From: Alloalcanivorax marinus
GTDB taxonomy: Bacteria > Pseudomonadota > Gammaproteobacteria > Pseudomonadales > Alcanivoracaceae
Direction: 5' to 3'
Assembly (NCBI RefSeq): GCF_016906305.1
Contig: NZ_JADDOL010000015.1
Span: forward strand, 1 to 64,000
DNA: 64,000 nucleotides
This document shows, one piece after another, positions 1 to 21,212 of the stretch. The notes beneath the pieces are model-generated. The model was not told the DNA's origin, did no database searches, and worked only from the letters and a program-made list of their open reading frames with translations. Both the position numbers and the translations under genes were made by a program. Each line of letters opens with the position of its first letter. Position 1 is the stretch's first letter.

Positions 1-24
1 GGGTAACTGGAAATCTCATCGTCT

Positions 25-3110: not shown

Positions 3111-3120
3111 CTCGTCCCCC

Positions 3121-5181
3121 CTAATTTTTTTGTTCTTGCCTGATAAACGTCACCTCAAAGGCCTTGCTAGACCGAAACTGCTGCAACCGGTTGGCAAACG
3201 CGAAGACTTCATTCATCTCGTAGTGCTGAAAGATGTCCAGCCCTCGATCCAGTGAAATCTTCCAGCCGTGATCTGTAACGATATGACGGGCGTGAATGGT
3301 GCCGCTTTCATCAAACTCCCAGGTGAAGTCGATGCCCACGGTGCGAGCGGATTCCTGGATCTTTTCAAAACTCTCGTCTTGTAGGTCACCCTTGAACTCG
3401 TCCCGGACGGTGACGAGGTGAACCGCCACTTCATCTTCCTCGGCCTTGTTCTTCACGATGGCTTCGAGAAACTCCATGAAATTTCGGACCTGGTAGAAAA
3501 GCCGGATGTAGGGGTCTGTGACGGTGATCTTGCTGGCGCCTTTCAGGTATGCGCCAAACAAGCCGTCGAATGAGATGCCTTTTTGGTTCTCCTGGAAGGT
3601 CAGGTGTTTTTCCTCCAGCGCAGGCTCAGGGGCGCGGGGCTCTTTGGGCTCGCCACCTTTAACGTCTACTGCTGGCTCGGGCTCTAATCCCCCGTCATCA
3701 GGAGTAGACACTGTCTGATGGTAGTAACCCGGATACTCTTCTTCCTCAAGTGTGGTGACCAACGTTTCCTGGCCCTGCTGATCCTGATAGGAAAATCGGA
3801 CTTCGCCGTAAGTAGTATCAATCCGCTGTAACTGGTCCTTGACCCGCTTGCGCCCCTCGATGGCAAAACGCAGCACTTCTTCAACCTCATCCCTGGTTGC
3901 TCCGCCCTGGGGAAACAGGATCTTCATCAAGCCGGAAAAGGTCTTGTTGATACCGTCCCGGTCACGGGTCGAGATATCAGAAGAAAGGGTAAAGTGCTCC
4001 CGGTACTGATCGGAATAATCGTAGTTCCGCATCGAGCGCAGGATTTCTGCAAGGTAGTCCACCACGAAGCCATAGCCGTCGGAGAACATCTCGCCCCGGA
4101 TGATATCGACCTCCCACCCGGGGATGTAGAAGTGGATTCGGTCCAGAAAGGCAGAATCGTAGAACTTGTCCGGCAGTTCATCGAACAGGTCTGAATGCTT
4201 CAGCATGTAAGGAACAGTGTGCCGGGTGTTCCCCACGAACACCATGGACGCCTCGGCGCCCAGGGTTTCCACTCCCCGGGAGAAGGACTTGTTGGCCATG
4301 TAGTTCTTCATGATGTCGACCAGTGCTTTATCGACGCGTTTCTGCTTGCCGGCGAATTCGTCGAAGGCCACGCAATCCCAGTAGCCCACCAGGCCGATTT
4401 TGCCGCTGGAGTTGTTCACAAACAGCTTGGGTACAGTGACCTCACCACCGGATACCAGGATCCCATGGGGCGAGAATTCGGAGTAAACGTGGGATTTACC
4501 CGTCCCCTTGGGGCCAAGTTCAATCAGGTTGTAGTTCCGCTCGCAGAACGGAATCAATCGGACCAGTTGCGTCAGCTTGCTGCGCCGTCCGAACATCTCC
4601 GGGTTAAAGCCGATACTCTGTATCAGCAGGTCAATCCACTCATCGGTGCTGAACTGCTGCCGCGCGGCAACGTAGGCGTCGTAGTCGAAGTGGGATAGCT
4701 GAATCGGTTTGAGGGTGGACAGAATCCAGGGGCTGACGTTCTGGTCTTCAGAAAATACGTATTCGATATCCGCAATGCACCAGACGCCGCTTACCAGCAG
4801 TTTGGGGTGGGCCTTCACGGTCCCAGAATCCACCAATACCTTCTTGATTCCCAGGTTGGAAAACTGCGCCTCGTAGGCATCCGTCTTCTCATTCAGGGCC
4901 ACGCTGATCTTATCGATAACCTTGTAGCGCCCCTTTTCCTTGATATTCGAGCGCACCAGTCCGGCCTCGTTGCGGTGGACATAGTGCTTGGCCAGAATCT
5001 CCTTGACCGTCTCGATACCGGTCTGAATCGTAGGCTCGTCGTTAGTGGCGCAGTATTGGCCGAGCAGATACTCGAGCACATATGAGGGCACGATGGCGTT
5101 GCCTTTGACCGTTTTCACCAGGTCTTTGCGCACTACCAACCCGGGGAAGTGTTGGTTGATCTTTTGGTCAAGCGTGCTCAT
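3121..5181 (-). CDS. brxL: BREX protein BrxL (Lon-like AAA+ ATPase)
   Basis: The 686-residue protein has the BrxL layout. The AAA+ core has Walker A GPKGTGKSHVYSE around residues 220-232, followed by conserved ILVSGGEVTVPKLF and the Walker B region WDCVAFDEFAG. An acidic, proline-rich linker leads to a C-terminal domain with ITVTDPYIRLFYQVRNF. BrxL is the last core gene of type 1 BREX. It is an AAA+ ring protein that binds DNA and is needed for phage exclusion in several systems. The start follows the pglZ stop by 12 bases, in the canonical pglZ-brxL order. It contains no visible frameshift. Confidence 0.93.
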   Translation of the reverse strand: MSTLDQKINQHFPGLVVRKDLVKTVKGNAIVPSYVLEYLLGQYCATNDEPTIQTGIETVKEILAKHYVHRNEAGLVRSNIKEKGRYKVIDKISVALNEKTDAYEAQFSNLGIKKVLVDSGTVKAHPKLLVSGVWCIADIEYVFSEDQNVSPWILSTLKPIQLSHFDYDAYVAARQQFSTDEWIDLLIQSIGFNPEMFGRRSKLTQLVRLIPFCERNYNLIELGPKGTGKSHVYSEFSPHGILVSGGEVTVPKLFVNNSSGKIGLVGYWDCVAFDEFAGKQKRVDKALVDIMKNYMANKSFSRGVETLGAEASMVFVGNTRHTVPYMLKHSDLFDELPDKFYDSAFLDRIHFYIPGWEVDIIRGEMFSDGYGFVVDYLAEILRSMRNYDYSDQYREHFTLSSDISTRDRDGINKTFSGLMKILFPQGGATRDEVEEVLRFAIEGRKRVKDQLQRIDTTYGEVRFSYQDQQGQETLVTTLEEEEYPGYYHQTVSTPDDGGLEPEPAVDVKGGEPKEPRAPEPALEEKHLTFQENQKGISFDGLFGAYLKGASKITVTDPYIRLFYQVRNFMEFLEAIVKNKAEEDEVAVHLVTVRDEFKGDLQDESFEKIQESARTVGIDFTWEFDESGTIHARHIVTDHGWKISLDRGLDIFQHYEMNEVFAFANRLQQFRSSKAFEVTFIRQEQKN

Positions 5182-5193
5182 TGGCTATAACCC

Positions 5194-7698
5194 TTAAAAA
5201 TCAAAATCGCTGGTAAAGGACCGCCGCATCAAATACCTGAGCGACTTGTATTCCTTGTAGTGGGACGTACCGGCATGCTGTTCTTCCAGGCGCAGAAAGA
5301 CCTCCTCGCCGTTGGCCTCATCCGCCTTGCGGCTCAGCACGAAGCGCACCTGAAGCTCTCGCTCGCGGGGGTTCTCCGAGGTCAGGTCAAACGACAGCTC
5401 GTGACTATCCGAGATCAACTCCCCCGCTTGGGTGTAAATCCCGGCCCGCAGGTGGCGAGGTTGAACCTTCTCGGTAACCGGCCCGGACTGATACAAGGTG
5501 ACCGCCAGTTGGCCGGAAGTGATCACCGAGCTGGCCCCACGCAGGATGTCCACCTCAACGGCGCTGACATCACTCTGTCGCTTCTTGTTAACCTTCAGGA
5601 CCGGAATCACAACCTCCTGAAGGGATGCGCCGCCATGCACAAAGCGGCTGCCAGAGCCTTTAAGGCGCAGCCGGTTGATGGACTTGGGAATCTGCACTTC
5701 CATATCGCCATCCAGCCCAAGCTGCTCAGACGAGAAGTAGTGGAACGCCGGAGAGGCGGACAGCCCCTTACCCAGCACGAACCGACGGTCCCGGTAGCGA
5801 ATATCATCGCCAGAAACGGCGTCGCCCAGGAAGTCACTCTCATCCAGCTCACGGTTCTGGTAAATAAAGCCATGGTCAGCGGTGATCAGCAGGTTATTGG
5901 CGTTGGCCGCCGTGAGCTTCTTGATCAGGCGTATGAGATCCGCCAGGGTCTGTTCCGCCGCTTCAAAGGCCTGCCCCTCTGAATGCATCTTGTCGCCAGT
6001 GTGATCGATGCGGTTGTGGTAGATGTACAGCACATCATTACCCTTGAGCAGATCACGGCTGTCGTCCCGGTTGAGCTGCATAAAATCCTCCGCCTTGACG
6101 GCCTGGCCCCGCCCATCCAGGGCGGCCTGCAGGATTTTGGTACGGTTGACCGTACCCTGTGAGCTTTGGCCATCCACCAGTACCGTACCGGTGTCGTTGT
6201 CGGCGATCGCCAAGGACTTGTTGGGCAGCAGCGCCGCCATACCGAGCTGGGTATAGCTGGGCAGGGTCGAGAGAGCCGGCTCGAGGTCCGCGCTGTAGCG
6301 ATCTTCCTGCCGGATAAGGCCCAGCAGCTCGTCACCAATCTCGTAGCGCATGGCGTCGGAAATGATCACACAGATCCGTTTGTCCTTACGCAGGTACGGG
6401 CGAACCCAGTGCTCGAAAAAGGCCTTTTGCTGAACGACCGGATAGGCCTCCCAGCGCGGCGCGGCGTCCACGTGAACCTGGAAGCCATCGCCCAGCTTGA
6501 GCAGGTAGTTGTTGGAATACAGGTTCTCCACCTGCTCACTGAGCTCGCCCATCAACGATGCCTGGCCGGACATGCGCACATGGTAGGTAAACTTGCGGTA
6601 GAGCTGATCCAGCTGATACCAGGAGCGGCTGTATCGCTGAACGCCGTCGGAGAGGCTGTCCATGGTGAGACGAGCCTCACCCAGTATTTGGACAAAACGG
6701 GCCGCAAACTCAATGGCTTCATACAGGTGGCGGAACTCCCCGTACCAATGGCCCTGGCGCCGCTGCCGCACCCACAGCGCCACATCGCCGCTGGTAACTG
6801 TGCGGCTAACCACCGCCCGCACCAGGTCACTGATAATCTTCTGGTCGATTAGCCGGAAGTAGTCCAGCTCAACCAGGTCCCGGAAGTCCCGCTTACCCAG
6901 ATCCTGCTCAATGCCCAGCACCTCGGCACACTCGGCAGACAGGGTTTCAAACCCCTGCTCGAACTGCCGGCTGTCTTTCCAGCGCTTGAGGAACACCAGC
7001 GCGTCGCCGGTCAGTTTGACCTCGCCATCGGTACCCATGGCGTAGCAGGACTTGAACAGCTCAATCACGAAGTCGCGAAGGCTGGGTTCACTGGCCTCGT
7101 AGCCGTAAAAACGGGTCAGTTGCTCCCACAGGAAGCTGTCCAGACCGCAACGCTCAATCAGCCGGATGCCATCATCGCGCCCTTCCGCCAGTTGCTGCAG
7201 CAGGGTTTCAACCACCGAGTCCATACGGGGCTCACTACCGGCACAGACAGCCAGCATCTTCAGGCGCAGCTGACGATCGGAATCGGGGGAGCTCGGCTCC
7301 AGCCATTTCCTCAATGCTTCCCTACGCTTGATAGCCTGAAAGAATTCAACGTGAGCCTCTACTACTTCTGCACGTTGAAAATCCAATTCGAGTTCGGACA
7401 GCCAGATAGCCACCTGGTCAGTCCGGAACTCGCCGTGGGCCAGCTGTACGTCCAGCAACCAGTTGTCCAGATCCTCTGGTTGCGGCCCCTCCTTGTACAG
7501 CAAGAATTTCTGTTCCGGTGACTCCCGCAGGATGCGATATTTCAGGCCGTACTCGTTGTTCGCGATTTCCAGTTTCTCCACGTCCGGGATGGAAACCGCC
7601 TCGAAGTCACCGCGCAGCTCGTGTTTGGTGTCGTACCAAAACACGATTCGGTGCTTATCGAACAGTCGGCTAAGAGCCTGGCTAATACGGTCACTCAT
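5194..7698 (-). CDS. pglZ: BREX protein PglZ (alkaline-phosphatase superfamily)
   Basis: An 834-residue PglZ, close to the usual size for type 1 BREX. The alkaline-phosphatase-like core shows CVIISDAMRYEIGDEL near residue 445, LPSYTQLGMAALLP, and TADHGFIYQNRELDE near 605, which carry the predicted metal ligands. PglZ is an essential BREX component and interacts with the methyltransferase PglX. Its ATG overlaps the stop of the downstream pglX half by four bases (ATGA), so translation of the two is probably coupled. It appears intact. Confidence 0.95.
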   Translation of the reverse strand: MSDRISQALSRLFDKHRIVFWYDTKHELRGDFEAVSIPDVEKLEIANNEYGLKYRILRESPEQKFLLYKEGPQPEDLDNWLLDVQLAHGEFRTDQVAIWLSELELDFQRAEVVEAHVEFFQAIKRREALRKWLEPSSPDSDRQLRLKMLAVCAGSEPRMDSVVETLLQQLAEGRDDGIRLIERCGLDSFLWEQLTRFYGYEASEPSLRDFVIELFKSCYAMGTDGEVKLTGDALVFLKRWKDSRQFEQGFETLSAECAEVLGIEQDLGKRDFRDLVELDYFRLIDQKIISDLVRAVVSRTVTSGDVALWVRQRRQGHWYGEFRHLYEAIEFAARFVQILGEARLTMDSLSDGVQRYSRSWYQLDQLYRKFTYHVRMSGQASLMGELSEQVENLYSNNYLLKLGDGFQVHVDAAPRWEAYPVVQQKAFFEHWVRPYLRKDKRICVIISDAMRYEIGDELLGLIRQEDRYSADLEPALSTLPSYTQLGMAALLPNKSLAIADNDTGTVLVDGQSSQGTVNRTKILQAALDGRGQAVKAEDFMQLNRDDSRDLLKGNDVLYIYHNRIDHTGDKMHSEGQAFEAAEQTLADLIRLIKKLTAANANNLLITADHGFIYQNRELDESDFLGDAVSGDDIRYRDRRFVLGKGLSASPAFHYFSSEQLGLDGDMEVQIPKSINRLRLKGSGSRFVHGGASLQEVVIPVLKVNKKRQSDVSAVEVDILRGASSVITSGQLAVTLYQSGPVTEKVQPRHLRAGIYTQAGELISDSHELSFDLTSENPRERELQVRFVLSRKADEANGEEVFLRLEEQHAGTSHYKEYKSLRYLMRRSFTSDFDF

Positions 7699-9449
7699 TG
7701 GCTTAACCCAGTAATCTTCTTTAAAGCTTCGGCGAATTTCGGATAGTTCGCCTTCACCCCGTCATCGAGATCGATTTCCACCTGCTCGGTGGCCAGGGGG
7801 TAGAGCACATCCCGCTCGTAGTCATCTAGCTCGGCGAGGATTTTGTTGATCTTCTCGATCTCTTTCAGGGCCTTGGTCTTATCACCCTGGGAGGTCCCGG
7901 CGCTGATACTGACGGCCTCCAGATGGTTCTTCCGGGCTTGCAGCTTCTCGTCTTTGAAATCCCGCAGGTACTCCAACACCGTGCCTACGGTGTGAGGCTG
8001 GTAGCGGTGCATGTAGATCAACGCGTTGAATGAGCCCTTGGGTGAGGAGAACAACCAGTAGATGGGGCGCTTTTTGTAACGGCGCACGTGGTCGTTGTAG
8101 AAGTCCTTCAGGAAGTACTTGCGGATGTCCTGACCCAGTGCCTGCTCGACAAAGTGGAGGTTTTCGTCATAGTGCTCCTCGCCAAAGGCGATGCGCAGGA
8201 ATTCACGGAAGCGCTCGGTGATGTCATCGGTGAACCAGTCGCCATCGAGCATGGGGATGACATTGTCATCGTCCGCCGGGAAGATCGGCTCAGGAACCCG
8301 CTTCAGATAATCCTCGATGGTCTCGCCCTGATTGGCTAGTATCAGCCCCGGTTTGTCCAGCGCGTAACGGCCCAACATGCAGCCCACCGCGTAGGAGACC
8401 AGCTCGCGCATGGTGTCGGCCAGAAGCAGCGCCTCCAACTCTTCCTCACTTTTGTTGCTGCCGTAGCGGTAATGGGGGTTGCAGGTCAGAGTGATCTCCT
8501 CCAGGGGTACACCTGGTGTCAACTCGTCCTGCAGGCCGTAGGCCTCGATAAAAATGCGGTTGTTATCTTCCTCCAACCGCTGCATTTCCAATGTAATCTC
8601 GTGCCAGTGGGCGCGAAGTTTTTGATACGTAGCTTTTAGCGATACATTAAAGTATGCGCGACACAATAACGGTGACTCGGTAAAATCCCAGGAAATTTCG
8701 TAAAAATTCCAATCTGAACGAGAAATATCGATCAGCCTCGAAATCGGAAAATTATCTCTGCATTTATCAATCAGCATAGCTTTGGGTATGAAAGGAATTC
8801 GACCTAAGCTAGTGATTCGAAAGTCCAAAGTTGGACTTAGGGCTTCCAACAAACGAAACACGACTTTGCTATTTAGAAGGCCAAGTATAACTAAAGCGTC
8901 ATTTTCATCTGAAAAAATCGAAGGCGCCGTCGAGTCATAAGTCATGCCCTCCTCATAATATCGGAGCGCAAAACGCCCCGAGCTAACACGACTCCAGCTT
9001 AAACCTGGTTTAAAAAAGTAAGACTTCCCCCGCACGGGAGCTCCATTATAGTTCAATGGAAGGCCATGGAACTGATGAATGTCTTTTCCGTCATGTTCCC
9101 AATTAACGACGTGATCGCGATTTCCAAACCACTTTCTAAATTCTCCTCCCTTTCGATGAGCAAACCATTTGAAGCCTTGCGCGCCCCCTTGTTTCTTGGA
9201 GCGACAGAATTTTTGATCAGAAATCTCCTGCCATCTGCGAAGGAAACGTTCGTTATCTCCAGTGTTTATACCCTCCCTTATGTCGCCGTGATCGGATAAC
9301 GAGTCATGAGTCTCGAAAACGCTGAGCATTGTTGGGGATAGCCAGTATGCAATCGCCCCCCCCGGAATCTTTTTAAAATCGGCCGGTGTAGCCATATAAA
9401 GACAACTACCTACACCGTGTTCAGTCTTGATTCCGCCACTATTGCTCAT
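7695..9449 (-). CDS. pglX: PglX C-terminal half (target-recognition and spacer region), separate gene
   Basis: A 584-residue protein matching the C-terminal half of BREX type 1 PglX. It starts with the junction ADFKKIPGGAIAYWLSP, continues through a variable probable DNA-recognition region to about residue 283, then a helical spacer (RLEEDNNRIFIEAYGLQDEL) and a conserved C-terminus. In ordinary PglX these follow the methyltransferase domain in one chain; here that domain is encoded 3.3 kb upstream. Start: the ATG at 9449 overlaps the stop of the 95-residue gene by 11 bases, suggesting coupled translation; the upstream in-frame extension looks non-coding. Bases 8600-9440 are markedly AT-richer than the rest, fitting exchange of the recognition domain. 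Alternative view: the remnant of a pglX disrupted by insertion. Confidence 0.85.
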   Translation of the reverse strand: MSNSGGIKTEHGVGSCLYMATPADFKKIPGGAIAYWLSPTMLSVFETHDSLSDHGDIREGINTGDNERFLRRWQEISDQKFCRSKKQGGAQGFKWFAHRKGGEFRKWFGNRDHVVNWEHDGKDIHQFHGLPLNYNGAPVRGKSYFFKPGLSWSRVSSGRFALRYYEEGMTYDSTAPSIFSDENDALVILGLLNSKVVFRLLEALSPTLDFRITSLGRIPFIPKAMLIDKCRDNFPISRLIDISRSDWNFYEISWDFTESPLLCRAYFNVSLKATYQKLRAHWHEITLEMQRLEEDNNRIFIEAYGLQDELTPGVPLEEITLTCNPHYRYGSNKSEEELEALLLADTMRELVSYAVGCMLGRYALDKPGLILANQGETIEDYLKRVPEPIFPADDDNVIPMLDGDWFTDDITERFREFLRIAFGEEHYDENLHFVEQALGQDIRKYFLKDFYNDHVRRYKKRPIYWLFSSPKGSFNALIYMHRYQPHTVGTVLEYLRDFKDEKLQARKNHLEAVSISAGTSQGDKTKALKEIEKINKILAELDDYERDVLYPLATEQVEIDLDDGVKANYPKFAEALKKITGLSQ

Positions 9450-9726
9450 CGTTGTTCTCCAAACCTTGCCCTTGGACTGACGTATCAATTTGCTGCCAGT
9501 CGTCCGCAATCTTCTTCCAATCCACCTCGCGCTCGACCGTCTCGCCGTCGCTGTCCTGACCTGACCAAACGGCCCAAAAATCAGGATCATCCGATTTTGG
9601 TCGATGATGCTCAGGAAGTTGGTTCATCTGCACCAGTACAGGCAGTTCCGAGGCCCAGACTAACCTTGTGCCGTGCTTGGAGTGGCCGCTATGAAAACTC
9701 CAGATCAGGTGTTGGACAATGCTCAT
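9439..9726 (-). CDS. 95-residue protein of unknown function between RT-nitrilase and PglX C-half
   Basis: A small soluble protein, rich in Trp, Asp and His, with no signal peptide or membrane segment. Recognisable stretches are HHRPKSDDPDFWAVW and a charged REVDWKKIADDWQ segment. I do not recognise the family. Its ATG overlaps the RT stop (ATGA), and its TAG lies inside the start of the downstream pglX half (11-base overlap), so it is locked into the operon at both ends. Position suggests an accessory to the reverse transcriptase; some DRT type 1 loci are listed with a second small gene. A piece gained during the pglX split is possible. Confidence 0.6.
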   Translation of the reverse strand: MSIVQHLIWSFHSGHSKHGTRLVWASELPVLVQMNQLPEHHRPKSDDPDFWAVWSGQDSDGETVEREVDWKKIADDWQQIDTSVQGQGLENNDEQ

Positions 9727-12700
9727 TCGTCTCCTCCTGCCGGAAGCACTTTTCGGCTATGCTCGATCGAGAACCCATCCGGCACTGGCTTGAAGGGCTG
9801 TGCGGGCGAGCGGTGGCTACTTTGAAATTGGCGCAAAGCTTTCACATCAATTTCACCGATGACGCAATAGTCGGTCACACCGCCCTTGACCCGCAGCAAA
9901 TCGCGTTTCCAGCTGTTTTTAAAGGGCGCTCGGATTCGGCTATCCCCGTACTGTCGGTCGTTGCATTGGATGATGTAGGCATGGATGTCCAGGGCGGCGG
10001 ACTCTACAAGCGCATTAAAGGTTTCGGTGTCCTGGTTCCATTCTGGTACAAATAGGGTATCTACTTTGCCCCGCAGGGCCGCGCGATAGCTGATGTTGGT
10101 CAATTCGCTGCACACCAGCAGGGCAAAGTGGAAGTCGCCGTGGCGTATAATGGGCGGAATACCCTTGCTCCAGAGTGATCCTGGCTTCATCTCCGCGCCG
10201 GCTAGCCGCTTCAGCTCCGCCTCTTCGTGCAAGGCGGGGCGCTGTTTGTCTTGCCGGTAGATCATGATAGAGGGAAAGCCCAGACCATCATGGGACAGAG
10301 CTGCCCACACCTGATTGCGCACCCGTGACTTACCTGCATGGAGGTACTCAATACCTGTAATCAGCGAAATGCCTCGACCTTGCAGCTTGCGGGCGATTCG
10401 CATAAACCAGTGCGCGGGAAGCGCCAGCTCCGGCAGGATAAGGTAACGACTATGCCGGGGTTGAGCGATTACACTGTCGAGCAAGTGGCATAGCCGGGCA
10501 TAACGGCCAGCATCGGGGTCCGGCATGCGCGTGACGGCTGCCGCCCAGCTTTCGATCCGCGTCTGCCAGCTGGAGACGGCGATATTGTATTTGCAAGGCT
10601 CAGCCCCATCGGGAATCTGTAGCACACCGTTCTTGTCGAAACGGGGTGTTTTGTCGCCGAGACTGAAGCCGCGCAAGGCCAGAACCACGCTGCGCAGGGC
10701 GGCTTGCCCTTGTTCGGTGTAGGCGTCTTTGTACAGCACGAAAAGTTCCGCCAAATTGAAGGGGCGGGTGGCAAACAGCAGCCCATATGGAAGTCCCTTC
10801 ATTTTTATCCACTTTGCCAGTCGCTGGCTGCCTTCCACTGCTGTACCAGGCAACAGCTCTGAGCCTTGAGCACAATTGAGCACGGTTTTCTTGGCGGGAA
10901 TTCCGCGTTGCGCGATCATCTCCTTGGGTAACCCCATAAAACGGAACGGCATATGTGCCAGGTCAAAGGAGAAAAGCCGTGCATGCTGCGACTGAAAGGC
11001 TTTCGCCGACACGGGCCAGGAGAGCATGGTTTCGACATCAAGCGTAGGGTGGCAATCCGCCATCTGCGCCTCCCATGCCTGCCGGCCCGCCCTGGACAAG
11101 CGTGGAGGAAAGGCCGCCGTGATACTTTCGCGAATGGTGGAAAATTGCTTTTCCTTCCAGCAGGCGATGATCTCAGCCTCGGATGGCGCGTTGGCAGATG
11201 GGCAGGCCTTTATCTCAACATCACAATGTTCACCGACTTGCTGGCAAAGGCGTTCCAGCGCGTCGATGATTCTGCGTAGATCGCCGAAATCCTCACACGC
11301 TGTTGCTAATCGAATCACTCGCGGCAAATAAACAGCCAAATCGAAAAACTGAGGCAGCACCAAAACATGTTGAATAAAGGCACGAAAGAAAGCCCGGCGA
11401 TGCGCTTGCCAGGCATCGGGATGTAAGTCCCGCTCATACGCCTCGAAGTCGCGTAGCTTGATGGCGAAGCTGGCGCGCCTCATGGTCAACGCATCGGCCT
11501 TACGTAAGTTGTCGGCGGCCTCCCCATCGCTTTGTGTGGCAGCTAGAAGGTCAGTGCTAACATGGCCGGCAGACCGAGGTAATCGGGGCATCGCCCGCCA
11601 TTCGCTGGCGCGCTCGTGAATCTGGTGTGCAATGGCATCAACCAGCGTTTTGCCAGGCTCGTCAGCCAGCATGAACACCTTGTTTTTAGCATTGGCGAAA
11701 TAGATCCTACTTTTGTTTTCGCCCTTTTTCAGGTAATCAGGCTGAAAGCGGATTCGGCTCTGCTCCCGGGTGTCCACCCAGCCCAGCTTTCCGCCGGAGC
11801 GTGCAAACAGCCACTCCCAAAGCTCAACCGTGGAGCGAAACCCAGCGCCGTTTTCCATGACCAAAAGAATGTCATCCACATAGCGACCGTAATACAGTGG
11901 AGCAACCTGTCGTTCGATGATACGGTCCAGTTCGATCAGTGCCACATTGGCCACTACAGCAGAGGCGGGCAACCCGACCGGCAATCCTTTTCCAAGAGGC
12001 GTTGCCTCGGCCCATGCCTGCAACGCACGGATAAACAGGCGGTGGAGCTTCGCTTGTTCTTCATTGAGTTCCAGGTTCAGAACAGTCGCCAGGAACTCTG
12101 GATCCAGCATAAAGCCAGGATTTAGCTCGTGATAGAAGGAGCTGACATCGGCCGTAAGTGCAACAATTTGTTTGCCCTCATCCAACGCAGTGCGCATGGT
12201 GGAGATGCCTTGATCACGCCAGTCGCGAAACGGTTTCAGATAGGGCGCGAACGAACCCAAAGACAATGGGTTGATGCGTTTTCCGTCCTGTGTGCGCCGC
12301 AAGCGGTTGCCATAGGCGCAACCTGTTAGCTTAGCGTCAAACAGATGACCGACCTCCATCATCCACAAAGTGGACAACACGTGGAAATCCATACTGCACT
12401 GCGCCATTACACGAAACTCGGCGACAGGTTTCTCCGGTTTCTTTTGGCCCGCCAGCAAAGTACAAGCGTGCTCCCATTCATCGGCGGGAGATGAGAAGAT
12501 CAAACCGATACCATGTACTTCCCGGTATTTTTGCCAAGGTGACATATCCACTGATTTCGTGGCCAGTGTCCAACTGCCCAGGAACTCCGAAGAAGTAGCC
12601 CAGGATTCGTCGTCGCCATTATATTGCGTCTGCAGCGCAGCTAGATTCTCATAGAGGTTTTCCTCGTAGTCTGCGATAACATCAAGGGACGCATGCGAAG

Positions 12701-12761
12701 AGTAATACAGGTCGACTTTTGCCTTTTTATAGGAAAGTCCGAAGCTTTCTAGGCTAATCAT
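9723..12761 (-). CDS. Reverse transcriptase-nitrilase fusion (DRT type 1 / UG1-like)
   Basis: A 1012-residue two-part protein. The N-terminal half has reverse-transcriptase motifs: motif A ALTADVSSFY with D205, motif B GLPVGLPASAVVAN near 259-272, and motif C YGRYVDDILL with YVDD at 294-297. A helical region follows. From about 725 there is a carbon-nitrogen hydrolase (nitrilase) domain with candidate triad E778 (LILPELALP), K839 and C884 (FALLVCSELTN). RT plus C-terminal nitrilase is the hallmark of UG1, the RT of DRT type 1 anti-phage systems. It sits between the two halves of pglX. Its ATG overlaps the stop of the upstream half, and its stop overlaps the next ATG. There is no maturase or HNH domain, so it is not a group II intron protein. 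Confidence 0.88.
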   Translation of the reverse strand: MISLESFGLSYKKAKVDLYYSSHASLDVIADYEENLYENLAALQTQYNGDDESWATSSEFLGSWTLATKSVDMSPWQKYREVHGIGLIFSSPADEWEHACTLLAGQKKPEKPVAEFRVMAQCSMDFHVLSTLWMMEVGHLFDAKLTGCAYGNRLRRTQDGKRINPLSLGSFAPYLKPFRDWRDQGISTMRTALDEGKQIVALTADVSSFYHELNPGFMLDPEFLATVLNLELNEEQAKLHRLFIRALQAWAEATPLGKGLPVGLPASAVVANVALIELDRIIERQVAPLYYGRYVDDILLVMENGAGFRSTVELWEWLFARSGGKLGWVDTREQSRIRFQPDYLKKGENKSRIYFANAKNKVFMLADEPGKTLVDAIAHQIHERASEWRAMPRLPRSAGHVSTDLLAATQSDGEAADNLRKADALTMRRASFAIKLRDFEAYERDLHPDAWQAHRRAFFRAFIQHVLVLPQFFDLAVYLPRVIRLATACEDFGDLRRIIDALERLCQQVGEHCDVEIKACPSANAPSEAEIIACWKEKQFSTIRESITAAFPPRLSRAGRQAWEAQMADCHPTLDVETMLSWPVSAKAFQSQHARLFSFDLAHMPFRFMGLPKEMIAQRGIPAKKTVLNCAQGSELLPGTAVEGSQRLAKWIKMKGLPYGLLFATRPFNLAELFVLYKDAYTEQGQAALRSVVLALRGFSLGDKTPRFDKNGVLQIPDGAEPCKYNIAVSSWQTRIESWAAAVTRMPDPDAGRYARLCHLLDSVIAQPRHSRYLILPELALPAHWFMRIARKLQGRGISLITGIEYLHAGKSRVRNQVWAALSHDGLGFPSIMIYRQDKQRPALHEEAELKRLAGAEMKPGSLWSKGIPPIIRHGDFHFALLVCSELTNISYRAALRGKVDTLFVPEWNQDTETFNALVESAALDIHAYIIQCNDRQYGDSRIRAPFKNSWKRDLLRVKGGVTDYCVIGEIDVKALRQFQSSHRSPAQPFKPVPDGFSIEHSRKVLPAGGDE

Positions 12762-14566
12762 GTCGAACGACCCTGCTCAATAGCCTGAGCCATCATGGCC
12801 ATCTTCTCAGCTTCCGAATTGCCATCGACCAATCGGAGAAACGCGCCTCTATAGTTCGGCTTATGGGCGTTCTCAAGTACGAAAGCAGTCGTTGAAACTA
12901 CTTCTCCACCGATGCTGTCAAAGGCTCGCGCACCCAGATGGGCCATCGACAAAATAGTGTGCTGATTGAGAATGCGGCCGCGCAAAGCTTCAAAGGAAGA
13001 CAGAAACATCCAGCTCTGCATCGTGATCATGGCGACAGCGCCGCCAGTTACCGCCATATCCAGATTACGTTCTATGAACATGGCAAACAGGTCGGACTTG
13101 CTCTTTGGGTAGTTCTCCTTGGCCCAGGCGCCAAGCCGCCCATTCATACCCTTGCCGCCCATATAGGGGGGGTTGGCGACGACCACCGCGTAGCGCGGGC
13201 TCAAGGCTTCGGCCATACGCAGTACTTCCAGTACTTTGCTGTGCGTGTCGGCCAGGAACAGGTTGCCCCCCAGGTTCTTTGTCTCCAGCTCGGCCAGCAC
13301 GTCAGCCACGTTGGTAAGCTTGGGCAAGATCAGGGAGCCGAAGTTGTCAGCCTCCTCGAACTGTTGCAAGGTTTCACGTAAGCCCTGGGTGAACAGGTCG
13401 CGGCCCACGGTGCTCATGTACTCTTCCAGTTCATCCGGAGTGAAGCTAACTTTTTTCAACATGCAGATGTTGGGCTTGATGCCTTTGTTGAAAAAACGCC
13501 GCTGACGCGCCCGGGCTTTCATGGTCAGAGCGAAGGCGGCCAGTTCGCCGGCGCGTTCATCCAGCTCAATACCGTAAAGGTTGTGTGTCAGGATCTTTTC
13601 CGGGATTTCGGACGGCTCGTAGCCTTCTTCTTCGTAAATGGCATAGAGGAGATCGAAAGCATAGGTCAGCATATGGCCGGATCCGCAGGCTGGGTCGCAA
13701 ACCTTGAGCTTTTCCGGGCCTTCGATTTTCAGAAAATCGGCCTCAGCCTCGCCCGGAGGAATGTAATATTCCATCTGATCCACCAAAGCTGAATTCGGTC
13801 TGTTAAGCATCCACAAGCGGCCGAGCGAGTTATCCACCAGGTATCGCACAATCCAGTGGGGCGTGAAAAGCTGGGTGGCGGCGGGGATATTGGCCGGTTT
13901 GATTTTCTGATTCTTCTTCAGCGCCTCGAATACTTGATCCTTTTTCTCGGATATATAGAACTGGTACAACCAGCCAATTACCTCGACATCCTCACAGGCA
14001 ACCGGCGTCATGGCCTCGCGAGTGTAGGCCAGAATTGAGTTGCCGGAGAGCAGGTCATCCGGCATTAGCAGCTCGGTGTAGTCGTCGATACGCTCGAACA
14101 GGAACGGCATGGCGCTGTACCAATAGTTACAGGCGGCTACGACCAGTAAGCGATAGGCTTCCCCTTGGGGATCCTGGCTGGGCATTTTGCCATCGAGCAG
14201 GGCGAAGACCCGTTTTCGGGTATTTTCCACGACCATCTCTTCATCGATATGGCCCATCTTGGCATCCGCCAGGATCTCGGGCTGAAACTGCCCCTCGGCG
14301 GGCGAGACCACGCCGATGCGGTTATATCGGTTCACGTCCATAAACCGCAGGGCTACGAGCCGGTTAAACCAGATATAGGCCACCCGCTCGACAACCTGCT
14401 CTTTACCCTGCTCGGCTATCGCCTCTTCAAGCTTTTTGATGGCCGATGGGCTTTCCCGCCGGGCGGGGCTTTCTTCGGCCAATACCAGCTTTAGCTTGGC
14501 GCCGACCTGTTCAATCAGGCTGCGGCGGGCGAACTGGGCGAATTTTCTGAGTTTTGCGGTTTCCAT
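12758..14566 (-). CDS. pglX: PglX N-terminal half: BREX adenine-specific DNA methyltransferase domain
   Basis: A 602-residue protein corresponding to the first half of BREX type 1 PglX, which is normally one chain of about 1200 residues. AdoMet-binding motif I DPACGSG is at 291-297 and the catalytic NPPY at 465-468, so the methyltransferase fold appears complete. PglX marks host DNA with N6-methyladenine at a BREX motif. The chain ends after FLRLVDGNSEAEK...EQGRST, just before the region that normally leads into DNA recognition. Its TGA overlaps the ATG of the RT gene. With the downstream half it could work like an M/S pair; alone it lacks a recognition domain. A weak AAGG lies about ten bases before the ATG. 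Confidence 0.9.
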   Translation of the reverse strand: METAKLRKFAQFARRSLIEQVGAKLKLVLAEESPARRESPSAIKKLEEAIAEQGKEQVVERVAYIWFNRLVALRFMDVNRYNRIGVVSPAEGQFQPEILADAKMGHIDEEMVVENTRKRVFALLDGKMPSQDPQGEAYRLLVVAACNYWYSAMPFLFERIDDYTELLMPDDLLSGNSILAYTREAMTPVACEDVEVIGWLYQFYISEKKDQVFEALKKNQKIKPANIPAATQLFTPHWIVRYLVDNSLGRLWMLNRPNSALVDQMEYYIPPGEAEADFLKIEGPEKLKVCDPACGSGHMLTYAFDLLYAIYEEEGYEPSEIPEKILTHNLYGIELDERAGELAAFALTMKARARQRRFFNKGIKPNICMLKKVSFTPDELEEYMSTVGRDLFTQGLRETLQQFEEADNFGSLILPKLTNVADVLAELETKNLGGNLFLADTHSKVLEVLRMAEALSPRYAVVVANPPYMGGKGMNGRLGAWAKENYPKSKSDLFAMFIERNLDMAVTGGAVAMITMQSWMFLSSFEALRGRILNQHTILSMAHLGARAFDSIGGEVVSTTAFVLENAHKPNYRGAFLRLVDGNSEAEKMAMMAQAIEQGRST

Positions 14567-14597
14567 CGATTCATGCCTTGCTTTTGATCGTGACCGA

Positions 14598-14651
14598 GCG
14601 ATATACGCTGACGCATAAATGAGCGTATATATTTACGCCGAGCGCATAAAT
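14598..14651. promoter_or_regulatory. Inverted and direct repeats upstream of pglX, candidate operator
   Basis: The 84-base gap between the AlbA-type gene and pglX holds a 9-base inverted repeat, ATATACGCT (14601-14609) and AGCGTATAT (14622-14630), and two direct copies of CGCATAAAT (14612-14620 and 14643-14651). The other gaps in this operon are much shorter and lack repeats. An operator for the upstream winged-helix protein, or an internal promoter for pglX, is a reasonable inference. Confidence 0.45.
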
Positions 14652-16324
14652 TAACGCGCGCGCTTGTAAATAGCTCCTTTACGCTCGCCTATTTGCTCGA
14701 TTTCTCCCCTTTTCTTCAATCTGGCCAACAACTTGTAGGCTTGGTCCGGGCTGATATGGCACAGCTCAACCACGTCAGCACGCTTGATGCTGCCGTGCGT
14801 ATCAATAAAGCTCATGACCATCTGCTGTTGCTGGATAGGATCAAACCCCGCCTGGCGTACATAAGCGGCTTTTTGCCCCGCCCCCCGGTATACCTTGGCG
14901 CTCAGGGTGTAGGTGCGGCCCTTGCCGGTGCCGTGGGCTTCCACCATGCCGGCTTCCACCAGTTTTTCCAGGGTACCCCGGACCACGGTTTCGGGCTTCT
15001 GCACGGATTTGGCCAGGTCCGCCGTTCTTAAACGCCGCTCATTGCGCAGCCGGGACAGGATAATCAGGCTGTCGATGGGCATGGCGGCGCCGGTCTGTTC
15101 CTCACGCTCGACGATCATGCGCAGGAATTCGGCGTCCGCGTCCGCTGCGCTCATGCGCACGGAGACGGTGTGAGCGGACGACATGGAGTAGTCGGGGGCG
15201 GTGCGCCCGTAGCGGAGCATACCCTCGAAGATCCGGTCGATGCCTCGGCCCGTGCGTTCGGCCAGGCCGATGCGCTTGATAATGTCAGCCAGCAAGGGGT
15301 TACGGGAGCGAGGGTCAGCCACCAGCAGGTTGTCCAGATTAACGCCCTCCACAAAACCACCGGGATTGCTGATGCTCAGGCCGTCGTCGTCCAGTTTGAC
15401 GTGTACGGCGCCCAGGGCGCTGTAGTCGCGGTGAACCAGGGCGTTCACAAAGGCTTCCCGGAAGGCCCGGCGGTCGAAGTTGGGGATCGGCACGCGAAAC
15501 AGCCCGACCTGAATCTCCTCTTCCTCCACCCGGGCCCGGAACAGCACTTCGACCTCTTCAAAGGTTTCCAGCAGCGGTTTGCGGTAGAACTCATTGACTA
15601 GGACATCGGTACCGCGCAGCACCTGGAAGGCTACCTCGTGGGAGGGCAGGTGTTGCCGGAGCTGCATTTCGTTCCCCAGCAGCAGCAAACCAGCCACGGT
15701 GGGATGGCGCCGACCTCCCACGCTCACGGTCAGTCCCAGGGCGCCGTCCAGCTCATCGTCCGCCAGGGGCATCAGGCTCTGGTCACCGCCGTACTTCTTG
15801 ATGGCGTTGCGGATGCGGATGCGCTGAATCGGATCCAGGTCCTCTACAGCGAGGTTTTCCACCGGCAAGGCTGAGGGGTCCGTTACTCCCAGGCTGGACT
15901 GGCGCTGAACAAACTCATGGGGGTAGAAGGGCACGGCCTCCGGAGTGCCATCCATTCTCAGGCGCCGACGTTGCAGCAGACCATCCGAAGTGGACACCAG
16001 CTGCCGGGACTTGGGCACCTGTATTCTGCCAATAGGTTGCCCTTCCAGCTCCAGGGCCTCAACACGCACAGCCAGCGAGGGGATGGTCTTGTTGGCTATC
16101 AGGGCGGGCAGGCCGGCGAGGTTGCGGTGATTGGCATGCAGCCCGGTTGGGGTGCCATCATCTTCAACGCCCAGGAACAGGTCGCCGCCCTCGGTGTTGG
16201 CCAGGGCCACCACCGCAGCTACCAGATCTCGGTCCGGCAGGCCTTTAACGTCGCTCTTGAATTCAACGGCAAGGCTTTCGCCCCCCTGAATAATTGTCTG
16301 GATTTCCTGTTCGGCTTCGTGCAT
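14651..16324 (-). CDS. AlbA/Schlafen-type ATP-binding regulator with winged helix, BREX-associated
   Basis: A 557-residue protein. The N-terminus (ESLAVEFKSDV, ANTEGGDLFLGVEDDG) is an AlbA_2/Schlafen-like nucleic-acid-binding domain. A central GHKL-like ATPase region has REAFVNALVHRDY and GRGIDRIFEGM, and the last 60 residues form a predicted helix-turn-helix. Such proteins are commonly annotated as putative transcriptional regulators and occur inside BREX loci between brxC and pglX. Start: the ATG at 16324 has GGGGA seven bases upstream; a longer in-frame opening would run into brxC and lacks family similarity. It lies 40 bases after brxC and just before the repeat cluster upstream of pglX, so control of pglX is plausible but unproven. 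Confidence 0.8.
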   Translation of the reverse strand: MHEAEQEIQTIIQGGESLAVEFKSDVKGLPDRDLVAAVVALANTEGGDLFLGVEDDGTPTGLHANHRNLAGLPALIANKTIPSLAVRVEALELEGQPIGRIQVPKSRQLVSTSDGLLQRRRLRMDGTPEAVPFYPHEFVQRQSSLGVTDPSALPVENLAVEDLDPIQRIRIRNAIKKYGGDQSLMPLADDELDGALGLTVSVGGRRHPTVAGLLLLGNEMQLRQHLPSHEVAFQVLRGTDVLVNEFYRKPLLETFEEVEVLFRARVEEEEIQVGLFRVPIPNFDRRAFREAFVNALVHRDYSALGAVHVKLDDDGLSISNPGGFVEGVNLDNLLVADPRSRNPLLADIIKRIGLAERTGRGIDRIFEGMLRYGRTAPDYSMSSAHTVSVRMSAADADAEFLRMIVEREEQTGAAMPIDSLIILSRLRNERRLRTADLAKSVQKPETVVRGTLEKLVEAGMVEAHGTGKGRTYTLSAKVYRGAGQKAAYVRQAGFDPIQQQQMVMSFIDTHGSIKRADVVELCHISPDQAYKLLARLKKRGEIEQIGERKGAIYKRAR

Positions 16325-16364
16325 GGCTATCCCCAACATCGACCGATTAGACGGTTCGGCACGC

Positions 16365-19300
16365 TTAGATCTGGACCTTGCGGCCTTGCTGGACTTCAGC
16401 CAGCAGGGCCTCGCGCAGGGCACTCAGATACCGATCCACATCACCCTCGTCGGCCAACCAAGCCTTATCGAACGTGACACGTAGGTTGCGAGTGTGAACG
16501 TAGTCGGCTGCCGATTCCTTGACCTGGTGAGACCGGCCCCCATTTTCCCCATCACCCTGCCTGCCCGGAGGCTGCTGGGAATCGTCTGACGGTGCTGACC
16601 TCTGATTGGCCAGCGCCACCATTTTGCCCAGCAGCTTCTGGTAACCCTCTTCTTCAAAGTACCGTGTCCGGTCCTTGATCACGGCAATCAGGTGCTCCTG
16701 CCCGATGTAATCGAACAAATCCCGGAACGGTTTGTTGAGCTCATCCTGACGCGGCTCCGGCAGGGTCTGATACTCGTCCATACTTTGCATGCGCTTCTGC
16801 ATGGTCTTTAGCGACGCTTCTGCCTGAGCTCGAGTTTGCTGCACTTTCTCATCGATGCGCTCCTGCAGGCTATCCAGTTGGCCCTTGAGCTGCTGAATGC
16901 GATTCCCTTTGTAGCAGTTGGGGTCGTTCAGGATGGTGCGGATCTGATCGATCTCGTCCCCGGACACGTAGATGAAGTTGGGCTCCTGACTCTGCAGGAA
17001 GGACCGAGCCTGGTTGTAGATGTCTTTCTGTGAGCCGCCCATAAACCTGCGGATGGGATCGATGACATCCTCTTTCAGGCCCAGCAGCTGGTCTTCCTGC
17101 TTGCCCAATTCCGTCAGGTGCCAGGTGTAGGGCTTCCCGGCAACCTCTTTCAGCGTCTCCAGGGCAGGTTTCAAGGCATTGAGGAACGGGTACTGGTCGA
17201 CCTGTGCTACCCGCCGATCCAGGTCGTGGTACATGTCCTGAAAGGCTTCGCCGGCCTCTTTACCCAGAGCCTTGGCTTCGCTGCTGCGGGGCGGACTGTC
17301 GAAGAAGTCTTCGTAGAATGACTTGAGGGCTCGGACCTGAGAGGCGGTGAACTCAATCTGTGGTTCCAGCACCACGTTGCCGTGGCCGTGGGTGTTACGC
17401 AGGGCGCGCTCCAGCTCGCTGTCCTCTAGGATATTCGCGTCGAGACGAACTTCCACCTTGCCACGGGCACACAGGTTGGCCAGGGTGCAGAGAATAGCGG
17501 CGTAATACCAGCCGTAGGGTTTGCGTTCGAACTTCTCCAGCAGGCTCTTGAGGGTGGTGCGGACACCGCCCCGGTTGTTGCTCTGAATGAACGCCAGCAC
17601 TTCCTGCTCGGATTCAGCCAGGGTCGTGGCGTCGTTACCGAAAAGACCATCGTCTGTACGGTTGAGGCAATTGCTAACGTCATTTTCCGTGTAGGAGACG
17701 CCACGCAACATGCGGAGGTTCGGGTAAGCCCGTGAAATCAGCTCATGGAAGCCCCGAATAATACGGGTCTGGGGGTCCTCATTCGCGACCTCCACATCGG
17801 CCCCGCCAATGAGTAACTTGGACTTGCCGATGAGGGTCTGAACCTGCTGCCGGAGCCTGGCTTCACGCTCACGATTCTGGAAGCCCTTGTCATTCAGGAT
17901 CCGCTTTACGGCTTCCTGCTGGGTAACGGAAATATTCTGCTTGATGTACTTCTCGGTGCGCTTGAACATGAGCAGATCGCGCACCAGGCGCTCGTCCGAC
18001 GGCATGAGCACAAACAGCTCGTCCGCCTTGTAGGTTGAGGCAGTACGGAGCATTTGCTCGTTGTCGGTGTGCTCATGGAACGGGCTGATGACATTGATGG
18101 AAAGCTCGTATTCACGCCCATGCAGTCGATCATCCAGTTTGCGCGAATAGGAGTAGTCCTGCCCCTGGTTTTGGGAGGAACCGGCGTCATAGCGGATCTT
18201 GCGCTGCTTGATGACAAAGTCGAAAACGATCTTTTCCAACTCGTCCGCAACGTCCGATGATTCAACCTCTGTGTTCTTGATCTCCTGTTCGACGTCCTTT
18301 TCCTCGTCCGTCAGGTACTCGTACTGGTCGCCGTTGCGCTGTATGTAGGTCTGTTGCTCCAGAAGACTCAGGGCTTCCTCGACCTTAGTACGAAGTGCCG
18401 GCAGATCCTGATCGAAGGCATCCAGCATCAGCACGCAGAGGTTGCGCACCGTGGGCTTGAATTCCTTGACATATTTGACCAGAAACAGGGCCTTCAGCAG
18501 CCGGATGGCGAAGGCATTATCGAGGTGGTTCTCGGCCTGAATAATCGCCCGCTGTATTTGTGATTTCAGTGCGGAGCGGATGCCTTCAAACATCAGGTCA
18601 AAGGTGGCCAGCTGGCCCACCTCATGGTTGCCGATGTGGATAGCCACCTGCTGAAAAACCCCCAGCATGGAGCGCTCGCCGACGGAACTGTGTTTACCCT
18701 CGAAGGCGTTGTGCTGCGACAGGTTTTGGATCGCTGATTGAAATAGCGCGAACTGGTAGGGGACGAAGGGGTAGCTGTGGATGAAGTGGTCCCTGTCCCG
18801 GAAGTTCCGGTAGGTGGCCGATCCATCCGCGAAGTCAAAGAGGGTTTTGAAGTTATTCGCCTGTGCGTGATAAACGTCCGACAGCTGATTGACACCTTCT
18901 TCGGTCTTGGTCAGCAGGCGCTTCTGGATAACTTCCGCCACATCAGCGCTGGACAGCTTCATACGGTTATTGAAGCGCGCCTGAATTTTCGAGAAATCAT
19001 TACCTTTCTTTTTACCCATTTCGCCCACAACGTCTTTCATCTCTTCCTGCGCGGTGACGATAATCCAGGCCCTGCCCCGACACTTGGTAGCGAGGCTCTC
19101 GGCAATGGTTTGCAGGTTGGTCATCAGCTTGGTGTTGTCGGCAATGTACTGGCCGACCTCGTCCACAAAGAAGTTCAGGCGGAACTCTTTGTGGCCACCC
19201 TCTTTTGCCTGCTTCTCGATATAGGCATTCACATTGTCCGCGAAGTCTTCAATCGAGACTCGGTATTCGCTGCGGTACTTGTCCAGAATGCCCGCTGCCG

Positions 19301-20597: not shown

Positions 20598-21212
20598 TCA
20601 AGCTGACATCCCCCTGATATCGGATTCATAGACTGGGAAGTAGAAAAACTCGTCAGGATTGTTCTGACACAGCAACTCAACCAGCCTGGGGCTTAGCAGT
20701 ATTGCGTTTATGGTTTTGTCCTTAGCTAACAACCCTGCCTCCCGCAGCATTCTGAACAGGACCTGCCGCAATTTATCGCGCGTTGAGGCGCTGGCATTAT
20801 CCAGTTCGTCATGCCATTCCGATTTACGGTTATAGAAGGCATCGAAATCCTCAAAACTGAGATCCAGCTTCATCGCGACAAACCGTTCGTGTAGTACTTC
20901 CACCGCAAAGTCCGCGATAAAGCGGTAAAGGCGACACACGGAAACCCACAGGAGGTGTGCCTGGTCCTGGTGGTTTGCCTCGGCCAGGAAAGTGAGTTCG
21001 CTTTCGGTCAACGTTTTCAGGCGTGCAATCGCCTCTCTACAGGTGCGCTTTGCCGTGCTTTCCGTTCTGGCCTGTAGCAGGTTGTCATGCAGCGCTTGAG
21101 CACGCACCTCATCCCAGTCACGGAGCGACAGGTACAGCTCGGCCAGCTTCACCGATTCGCGGTGATACAGGCTGCCGGACGTGAAGGAGATGCGATACCG
21201 GCCTTGGGTCAT
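20598..21212 (-). CDS. brxA: BREX protein BrxA (DUF1819)
   Basis: A 204-residue DUF1819 protein. The N-terminus RYRISFTSGSLYHRES and the helical C-terminus LLSPRLVELLCQNNPDEF are characteristic. BrxA is a small DNA-binding protein conserved as the first core gene of type 1 BREX. Its ATG overlaps the stop of the upstream HTH gene (ATGA). It appears intact. Confidence 0.92.
   Translation of the reverse strand: MTQGRYRISFTSGSLYHRESVKLAELYLSLRDWDEVRAQALHDNLLQARTESTAKRTCREAIARLKTLTESELTFLAEANHQDQAHLLWVSVCRLYRFIADFAVEVLHERFVAMKLDLSFEDFDAFYNRKSEWHDELDNASASTRDKLRQVLFRMLREAGLLAKDKTINAILLSPRLVELLCQNNPDEFFYFPVYESDIRGMSA

Follow-up and report, generated by a model that had tools for sequence, protein, structure and literature searches.

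A type I BREX operon with PglX encoded as two polypeptides and a UG5-type reverse transcriptase-nitrilase gene nested between the halves

What is to be made of a phage-defence methyltransferase gene that is divided into two open reading frames (ORFs), with other complete genes lodged between them? The question is raised by the first 64,000 nucleotides (nt) of contig NZ_JADDOL010000015.1 of Alloalcanivorax marinus (assembly GCF_016906305.1), hereafter the window, in which the PglX of a bacteriophage exclusion (BREX) operon is encoded as two halves separated by a gene for a reverse transcriptase (RT)-nitrilase and a gene for a protein of 95 residues. A preliminary description, made from the letters alone, had reported these ORFs with their coordinates and overlaps, all of which proved correct. 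The divided unit comprises the following features:

12758..14566, minus strand: pglX-N, 602 residues, the methyltransferase half, with a helical bundle, an S-adenosylmethionine (SAM) motif and an NPPY motif
9723..12761, minus strand: UG5-type RT-nitrilase, 1012 residues, nested between the pglX halves
11871..11882, minus strand: RT catalytic motif YVDD, residues 294-297
9762..10592, minus strand: nitrilase domain, about residues 724-1000, from profile matches at about 750-998 and the predicted structure (limits approximate)
9439..9726, minus strand: 95-residue protein, with likeness to the C-terminal tail of HerA/DUF87 ATPases only
7695..9449, minus strand: pglX-C, 584 residues, the specificity half, with target recognition domain (TRD), spacer helices and C-terminal region
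8618..13400, minus strand: variable block, weakly or not alignable to the sister locus L235, which has a fused pglX and no RT (limits approximate)

On the minus strand the genes follow the order helix-turn-helix gene, brxA, brxB, brxC, a Schlafen/AlbA_2-HATPase gene, pglX-N, RT-nitrilase, 95-residue gene, pglX-C, pglZ and brxL, and from pglX-N to pglZ consecutive ORFs overlap by 4, 4, 11 and 4 nt (ATGA at 12758-12761, 9723-9726 and 7695-7698; 11 bases at 9439-9449); the longest ORF for pglX-C would begin at 9590 and encode 631 residues. Named models were matched by brxC, both pglX parts, a type A pglZ and brxL, all in one operon, which is a type I BREX operon with PglX as two polypeptides instead of one.

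The two halves together represent a whole PglX, as the preliminary description had held, because the NCBIfam BREX-1 PglX model (NF033452, 1210 positions) is covered by PglX-N at positions 1-648 (767 bits) and by PglX-C at positions 645-1209 (667 bits); PglX-N also matched the PADLOC model PDLC02525 with 930 bits. Residues 45-591 of PglX-N align with residues 67-634 of Escherichia coli BrxX (PDB 9ewz), and PglX-C aligns from residue 21 onward with Salmonella PglX (PDB 8c45) from residue 646. The hinge of Salmonella PglX has been placed at residues 654-659 and its C-terminal domain by itself likened to type I specificity subunits (PMC11341690), and in BrxX a flexible linker joins the methyltransferase and the TRD (PMC11842806). 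The cut is thus shown to lie in the linker that joins the methyltransferase jaw to the DNA-recognition jaw in the solved PglX structures, with the domains kept in both halves, and it therefore parts an M-like from an S-like half; this position fits the M/S-like pair, HsdM-like and HsdS-like, that had been suggested at the outset. The predicted model of PglX-C is of middling quality (predicted local distance difference test, pLDDT, 69.9; predicted template modelling score, pTM, 0.66), and its best structural matches are PglX structures. The sequences bordering the cut are also alike among loci: N halves end soon after the motif RLVDG.SEAEK, replaced by an alternative linker in L050, L064 and L073, and C halves start with a methionine 12 or 16 residues ahead of the motif [FY][FY]RAS in 13 loci and 27 residues ahead in L266. 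In the PglX-C of the window this motif has diverged, and DFKKIPG occurs 23 residues in, as in L036. Half-length PglX models are present in PADLOC (PDLC02525, 607 positions; PDLC02516, 593 positions), which indicates that half-size PglX proteins had been clustered earlier.

How often the layout recurs was assessed by scanning an alignment of the RT against one genome per GTDB species, which returned at least 528 places with relatives; the best 80 were kept, a sample biased to relatives of the window RT. Twelve of these best 80 loci share the order and orientation PglX-N, RT, PglX-C, in three phyla and with the cut in the same linker (L036, L038, L047, L048, L050, L056, L057, L059, L060, L063, L064 and L073). 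One of them, L057, ends at a contig edge on both sides, and a further locus, L055, has the RT followed by PglX-C with the N side beyond the contig. Hosts include Halopseudomonas, Pseudomonas, Buttiauxella, Marinobacterium, Marinobacter and Pseudidiomarina, as well as metagenome-assembled genomes (MAGs) of Acidovorax, Chlorobiaceae and Kiritimatiellae. With the start codons that we assigned, the junction from RT to PglX-C ranges from an 8-nt overlap to a 2-nt gap in all but two of 14 loci, the exceptions being L063, with a 290-nt gap, and the window, where the 95-residue gene intervenes. Two candidates were left out of the count, L053, whose N side ends at a contig edge with an unrelated frame upstream, and L069, which has a tyrosine-recombinase ORF and a second, inverted copy of the TRD; L231 (genome G056), whose C half is frameshifted, was not counted as intact. 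A Sphingobium 'hypothetical protein (x2)' turned out to be a fused PglX.

The occurrence of the same layout in distant bacteria indicates that it is a real and recurrent arrangement and not a chance broken gene, and the view that random disruption was not at work is borne out by a precise recurrent hinge split with intact domains and overlapping ORFs. A lack of homologous loci, which the preliminary description had named as grounds against itself, was not observed. An assembly artefact, which that description had also named as a possible undoing of its reading, or a frameshift error has a negligible probability and is refuted by the recurrences: the insert is 3.3 kb of intact coding sequence, the layout is found in 12 other assemblies, among them the complete chromosome NZ_CP092123.1, and no point in favour of an artefact was found.

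The sister locus L235 (genome G533) lacks an RT and has its pglX fused, with 3.8 kb of other DNA separating pglX from pglZ. Its identity to the window is 93.8% along the 9.07 kb that begin ahead of brxA and end within pglX, 89.5% at the end of pglX, and 93.8% across pglZ into brxL. In 150-nt windows, identity is 93-99% down to about position 14,000 and 72-81% to about 13,400, the rest of pglX-N being 65-67% identical or unalignable; the RT, the small gene and the TRD are unalignable to about 8,618, after which identity returns to 84-93% up to the end of pglX-C. Fused alleles on the same backbone (L236, L241, L242 and L252) differ most from L235 in the same pglX block. Conserved arms around a variable pglX block imply that pglX alleles are exchanged, the window allele including the RT and the small gene; as judged from these alignments, the RT is shown to lie inside the exchanged block. 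A comparison of L036 with L038 shows exchange on a short time scale: synonymous divergence (dS) is 0.24 for PglX-N and 0.22 for the RT, against 1.6 for BrxC and 2.9 for PglZ, the extra cargo differs, and within PglX-C identity is 40% in the TRD, against 91% and 82-93% in the sequences on either side of it. The ratio of nonsynonymous to synonymous divergence (dN/dS) between these two loci is 0.06 for PglX-N, 0.09 for the RT and 0.26 for PglX-C, values that indicate constraint on the split halves and on the RT. On the PglX-N tree, which has 13 split rows, a single clade of split PglX was rejected (approximately unbiased test p-AU 8e-8, 4 changes), and six changes between split and fused states were counted both on the PglX-N tree with L266 and L231 added and on the PglX-C tree; because pglX is mosaic, several origins and transfer of a split allele are inseparable here. 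A different arrangement was observed in an actinobacterial pglX (L069, positions 1-6000), in which the inverted second TRD copy is accompanied by 69-bp inverted repeats (98.6%) and the tyrosine-recombinase ORF, the RT lying elsewhere in the operon; from its sequence features this is probably an invertible BREX specificity switch.

Regarding the nested enzyme, the preliminary assignment to type 1 of the defence-associated reverse transcriptases (DRT) has to be replaced. The protein matched the PADLOC model PDLC03780 (RT_UG5-nitrilase) with 1042 bits over residues 2-1010, whereas the best Drt1a model gave 77 bits, far under the UG5-nitrilase score; it is a UG5-nitrilase RT, DRT5-like (class 3 DRT), and not DRT1, with which it has the RT-nitrilase design in common. 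Residues D296 and D297 of the RT and E778, K839 and C884 of the nitrilase are invariant among 48 aligned sequences, and the AlphaFold2 model is a confident two-enzyme fold (pLDDT 88.4; pTM 0.89), for which Foldseek returned amidases and nitrilases of the nitrilase superfamily, and the UG15, DRT4 and AbiA RTs. The window protein thus shares with DRT5/UG5-nitrilase the family, the RT and nitrilase motifs and the predicted two-enzyme fold, and differs in its location inside a split pglX, close relatives including genes without BREX neighbours. For DRT1, the RT and nitrilase sites are both required and the action is abortive, while DRT5S/L perform untemplated DNA synthesis (PMC13275509). A retron or noncoding RNA-dependent DRT reading was dropped, as an Rfam scan of window positions 1-30000 gave no family beside the RT and no match at gathering score, an undescribed RNA remaining possible. 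A second RT frame (535 residues, weak match) was detected elsewhere in the same genome (G000:C23:144288-144587). In many loci the C-terminal tail of the RT codes a purine-rich GGAG- or GGGG-like stretch before the next start, e.g., window 9726-9745, which may double as a ribosome binding site.

The proximity of an RT to a hypervariable TRD might suggest that the RT diversifies the neighbouring TRD, in the manner of a diversity-generating retroelement (DGR). We consider this very improbable and rejected it, given that no template/variable repeat was found in positions 7000-15000, where the only direct repeat pair is one of 21 nt at 86%; moreover, the same block varies among fused pglX alleles lacking an RT, and the RT is of UG5 type.

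The gap between the two halves has the look of a slot for cargo. After PglX-N and ahead of the RT we found SduA (Shedu) in L036, an AAA ATPase and a 189-residue protein in L038, a 186-residue unknown protein in L047 and L048, a TIR protein in L059, HEC-02A/B in L060 and a YhcG-type nuclease in L064. The hinge would constitute a cargo site missed by searches between pglX and pglZ, where BREX loci commonly have genes (PMC11341690). The 95-residue protein of the window gave no match in a Pfam search; it matched positions 628-684 of the 686 of PADLOC HerA (PDLC04098, 61 bits), and over 88 residues it shares 46.6% identity with the end of a plasmid-borne DUF87 protein. Its gene may be what remains of earlier cargo, now joining the RT to PglX-C. 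In L231, the same split site (positions 11600-12300) holds a frame resembling an AlbA_2-type protein or its remnant between the halves, as noted by eye and without a profile search.

Taken together, we regard as reasonably probable a reading in which a two-chain, M/S-type PglX reassembles in a type I BREX system that carries a nested RT-nitrilase as an abortive backup. PglX-N would act as the M-like chain, in charge of SAM binding and catalysis, and PglX-C as the S-like chain, providing target recognition, spacer and C-terminal region; the two most likely reassemble, and would form an active methyltransferase. The slot between them would house a further layer of defence, which in the window is a UG5-nitrilase DRT. 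On the analogy of DRT1 and DRT5, this RT may produce protein-primed untemplated DNA that controls a toxic nitrilase, which would kill or arrest the infected cell, as measured for DRT1, the analogy with DRT5 concerning the synthesis step only. Through the overlapping ORFs, production of the specificity chain would be coupled to RT translation, and recombination that exchanges specificity could bring the backup effector with it, so that both changes might be a single genetic event. The trigger, the most speculative step, would be inhibition of PglX, as Ocr triggers PARIS. This reading suggests that BREX can work with an M/S-type split methyltransferase, offers a functional interpretation for half-size 'PglX' genes otherwise labelled truncated, and provides natural two-chain constructs for a protein whose C-terminal domain failed to be expressed alone in one study. 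It also sets a class 3 DRT in a constant position relative to a methylation system whose inhibitors are known, and for this reason the trigger becomes testable.

Several observations weigh against this reading. The RT also occurs at other places in type I BREX loci (L044, L065, L067, L069 and L238), and 60 of the best 80 RT loci have no BREX core match, 7 of these being shorter than 12 kb. In a class-level sample not chosen by PglX, a full-length RT relative was present in 4 of 369 genomes and only that of the window lies in a split pglX; as for the others, G201 has no PglX in view, G216 is a 4-kb contig and G249 carries DISARM. An intact split pglX without RT exists in G853 (L266, positions 7944-14971), where the slot holds an AlbA_2-like gene (by tblastn to the window gene) and AriA-like and AriB-like genes, that is, PARIS-like cargo. 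Between L047 and L048, dS is 0.58 for PglX-N, 0.11 for the RT and 0.27 for BrxC, implying that PglX-N was exchanged apart from the RT there, contrary to a fixed unit, and between the window and L060 both PglX-N and BrxC are near saturation. PglX-C is frameshifted in L048 and in the decaying L231, and one study failed to express the C-terminal domain of PglX by itself (PMC11341690). The same source reports that Salmonella PARIS nested in BREX showed no Ocr activation as tested, and a two-part pglX has been taken elsewhere as an impaired system or truncation (PMC9716671).

These last observations bear on the possibility that PglX is dead or dying and that the locus is kept only for the RT and other cargo. 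Besides the frameshifts in L048 and L231, and the treatment of interrupted pglX as loss of function in PMC9716671, real disruptions do occur: in G249 (L264, positions 10638-16593) a DISARM DrmMI gene interrupted by an IS66 transposase lies directly upstream of a UG5-type RT and drmA/drmB. That locus had been considered as a parallel split in DISARM, and was dropped when the intervening gene proved to be the transposase. Nevertheless, the reading frames of both halves are uninterrupted in the window, as they are, so far as contigs extend, in 11 of the 12 further loci with the nested order; the low dN/dS values, the breakage of the same linker across phyla and the intact brxC, pglZ and brxL of the window also speak for retained function, and we hold a dying PglX to be improbable.

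A second alternative is plain nesting in a defence island, in which the PglX split is neutral, insertions are tolerated and the RT hitchhikes, linked to BREX by co-transcription only. It would account for RTs lying apart from both BREX and restriction-modification (R-M), and for those beside type I R-M genes: in 12 of the best 80 loci the RT stands with same-strand HsdM, HsdS or HsdR homologues (L034, L037, L042, L075, L086, L090, L093, L094, L095, L099, L104 and L111; Hsd calls made with Pfam on representatives from L034, L075 and L086, and by BLAST cluster for the remaining loci). Varied cargo in the same slot, the intermixing of BREX and non-BREX copies in the RT tree, and the common presence of genes between pglX and pglZ in BREX loci (PMC11341690) point the same way. 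Against it stand the constant slot and orientation, the tight RT/PglX-C junctions and the co-occurrence of split and RT in a sample selected by PglX. For the latter, a PglX-C profile was searched against 369 class, 390 order and 398 phylum genomes (overlapping sets); 35 distinct genomes scored above 500 bits and 30 were examined, with flanks of about 9 kb or less, the five left out being fused (G1075, G908, G762, G1073 and G1047). Splits of intact size numbered four (the window; G392, L230, with a contig as long as that of L073; G402, L229, with a contig as long as that of L050; and G853, L266). An RT was near 3 of these 4 and near 1 of 26 fused pglX genes (Fisher p = 0.004, from small numbers and tested after the pattern had been seen), the sole fused case being G680 (L238), where the RT follows pglX. 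On this evidence, hitchhiking is a possible but not a favoured explanation. Other genomic contexts were noted for RT relatives and for pglX: in L066 a BrxC/BrxD-family ATPase is encoded two genes upstream, L260 (S. meliloti pRM41A) encodes a 70% identical RT-nitrilase without BREX neighbours near an Hxs radical-SAM gene cluster, and L239 (G609) has two tandem pglX genes in one BREX operon. No phage record matched, and in an IMG/VR scan from which 80 relatives were kept, only L112-L115 matched more than 850 query positions, BREX being seen in none of these four.

The preliminary interpretation survives in part. Its proposal that the RT may have been placed under BREX control is weakened by RTs in other slots and outside BREX and by a split PglX with other cargo and no RT; nesting is not proof of control, and a guard role for the RT under BREX would be a stronger claim, at present only a possible one. 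A stronger version of our preferred reading, with reassembling PglX chains and an abortive backup, would make the hinge a dedicated guard slot (DRT5, PARIS-like, Shedu, HEC-02, TIR) in a repeatedly arising M/S-type PglX, with the effector tied in both expression and inheritance, and the RT-nitrilase firing when a phage disables PglX or BREX. We put this forward tentatively, as doubtful; if true, the specificity chain would be translated from an overlap with its guard, and a specificity swap would bring its own guard.

With respect to known systems, type I BREX (brxA-brxB-brxC-pglX-pglZ-brxL) resembles the window in brxC, the pglX parts, type A pglZ and brxL by model; solved PglX/BrxX proteins, however, are single chains of 1205-1225 residues, whereas the window has two polypeptides with genes between them. 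In type I R-M, HsdM and HsdS likewise come as separate M-like and S-like ORFs, an effector may stand among the core genes, and UG5 RTs occur in such operons too; PrrC in EcoprrI is an accessory gene in a type I R-M operon. The window differs in that its PglX-C lacks Methylase_S (PF01420), with no Pfam match at 0.01, and in that BREX partners replace HsdR. As with BrxU and PARIS, accessory defence genes lie within the BREX operon (PMC8565348, PMC11341690), the cargo of the window lying within the coding unit of pglX, at the position of the hinge. The earlier statement that no such system had been described holds for the nesting of an RT in a split pglX, of which no report was found in the literature searched, and the main text of PMC12839542 does not contain 'split', 'reverse transcriptase' or 'nitrilase'. 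It does not hold for the division itself: a two-part pglX is reported in cyanobacterial MAGs of Regnicoccus frigidus, with pglX interruption in diverse microbes credited there to Goldfarb 2015, and, unlike the window, with no mention of a nested RT in the accessible part of that source (PMC9716671). What can be claimed as new is accordingly confined to the nesting, the constant position of the cut at the hinge and the exchange of alleles.

The remaining genes of the operon are:

5194..7698, minus strand: pglZ (type A), TIGR02687, 1045 bits
3121..5181, minus strand: brxL, PADLOC BrxL 1222 bits, TIGR02688 667 bits
14651..16423, minus strand: Schlafen AlbA_2/HATPase accessory gene with a winged-helix-like C-terminus, Pfam PF04326 and PF13749
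16365..19946, minus strand: brxC, NF033441 BREX_BrxC, 1288 bits
19990..20601, minus strand: brxB, named from its location, its length and the homologues that other BREX loci carry
20598..21212, minus strand: brxA, named on the same grounds as brxB

For brxA and brxB, an NCBIfam scan at 0.001 gave no match, PADLOC not having been searched for these two. No tRNA was found in the window. Adjoining the operon are a gene for a MobI-family protein (Pfam PF19456; 21652-22494) and one for an integrase-domain protein (25143-26384; match below the cut-off of that model), which together suggest an integrative mobile element. At the contig start, downstream of an AAA_13 gene (PADLOC PDC-S06; 660-3110), an SbcD ORF at 25-663 encodes only 212 residues, matches the first half of SbcD models and looks truncated.

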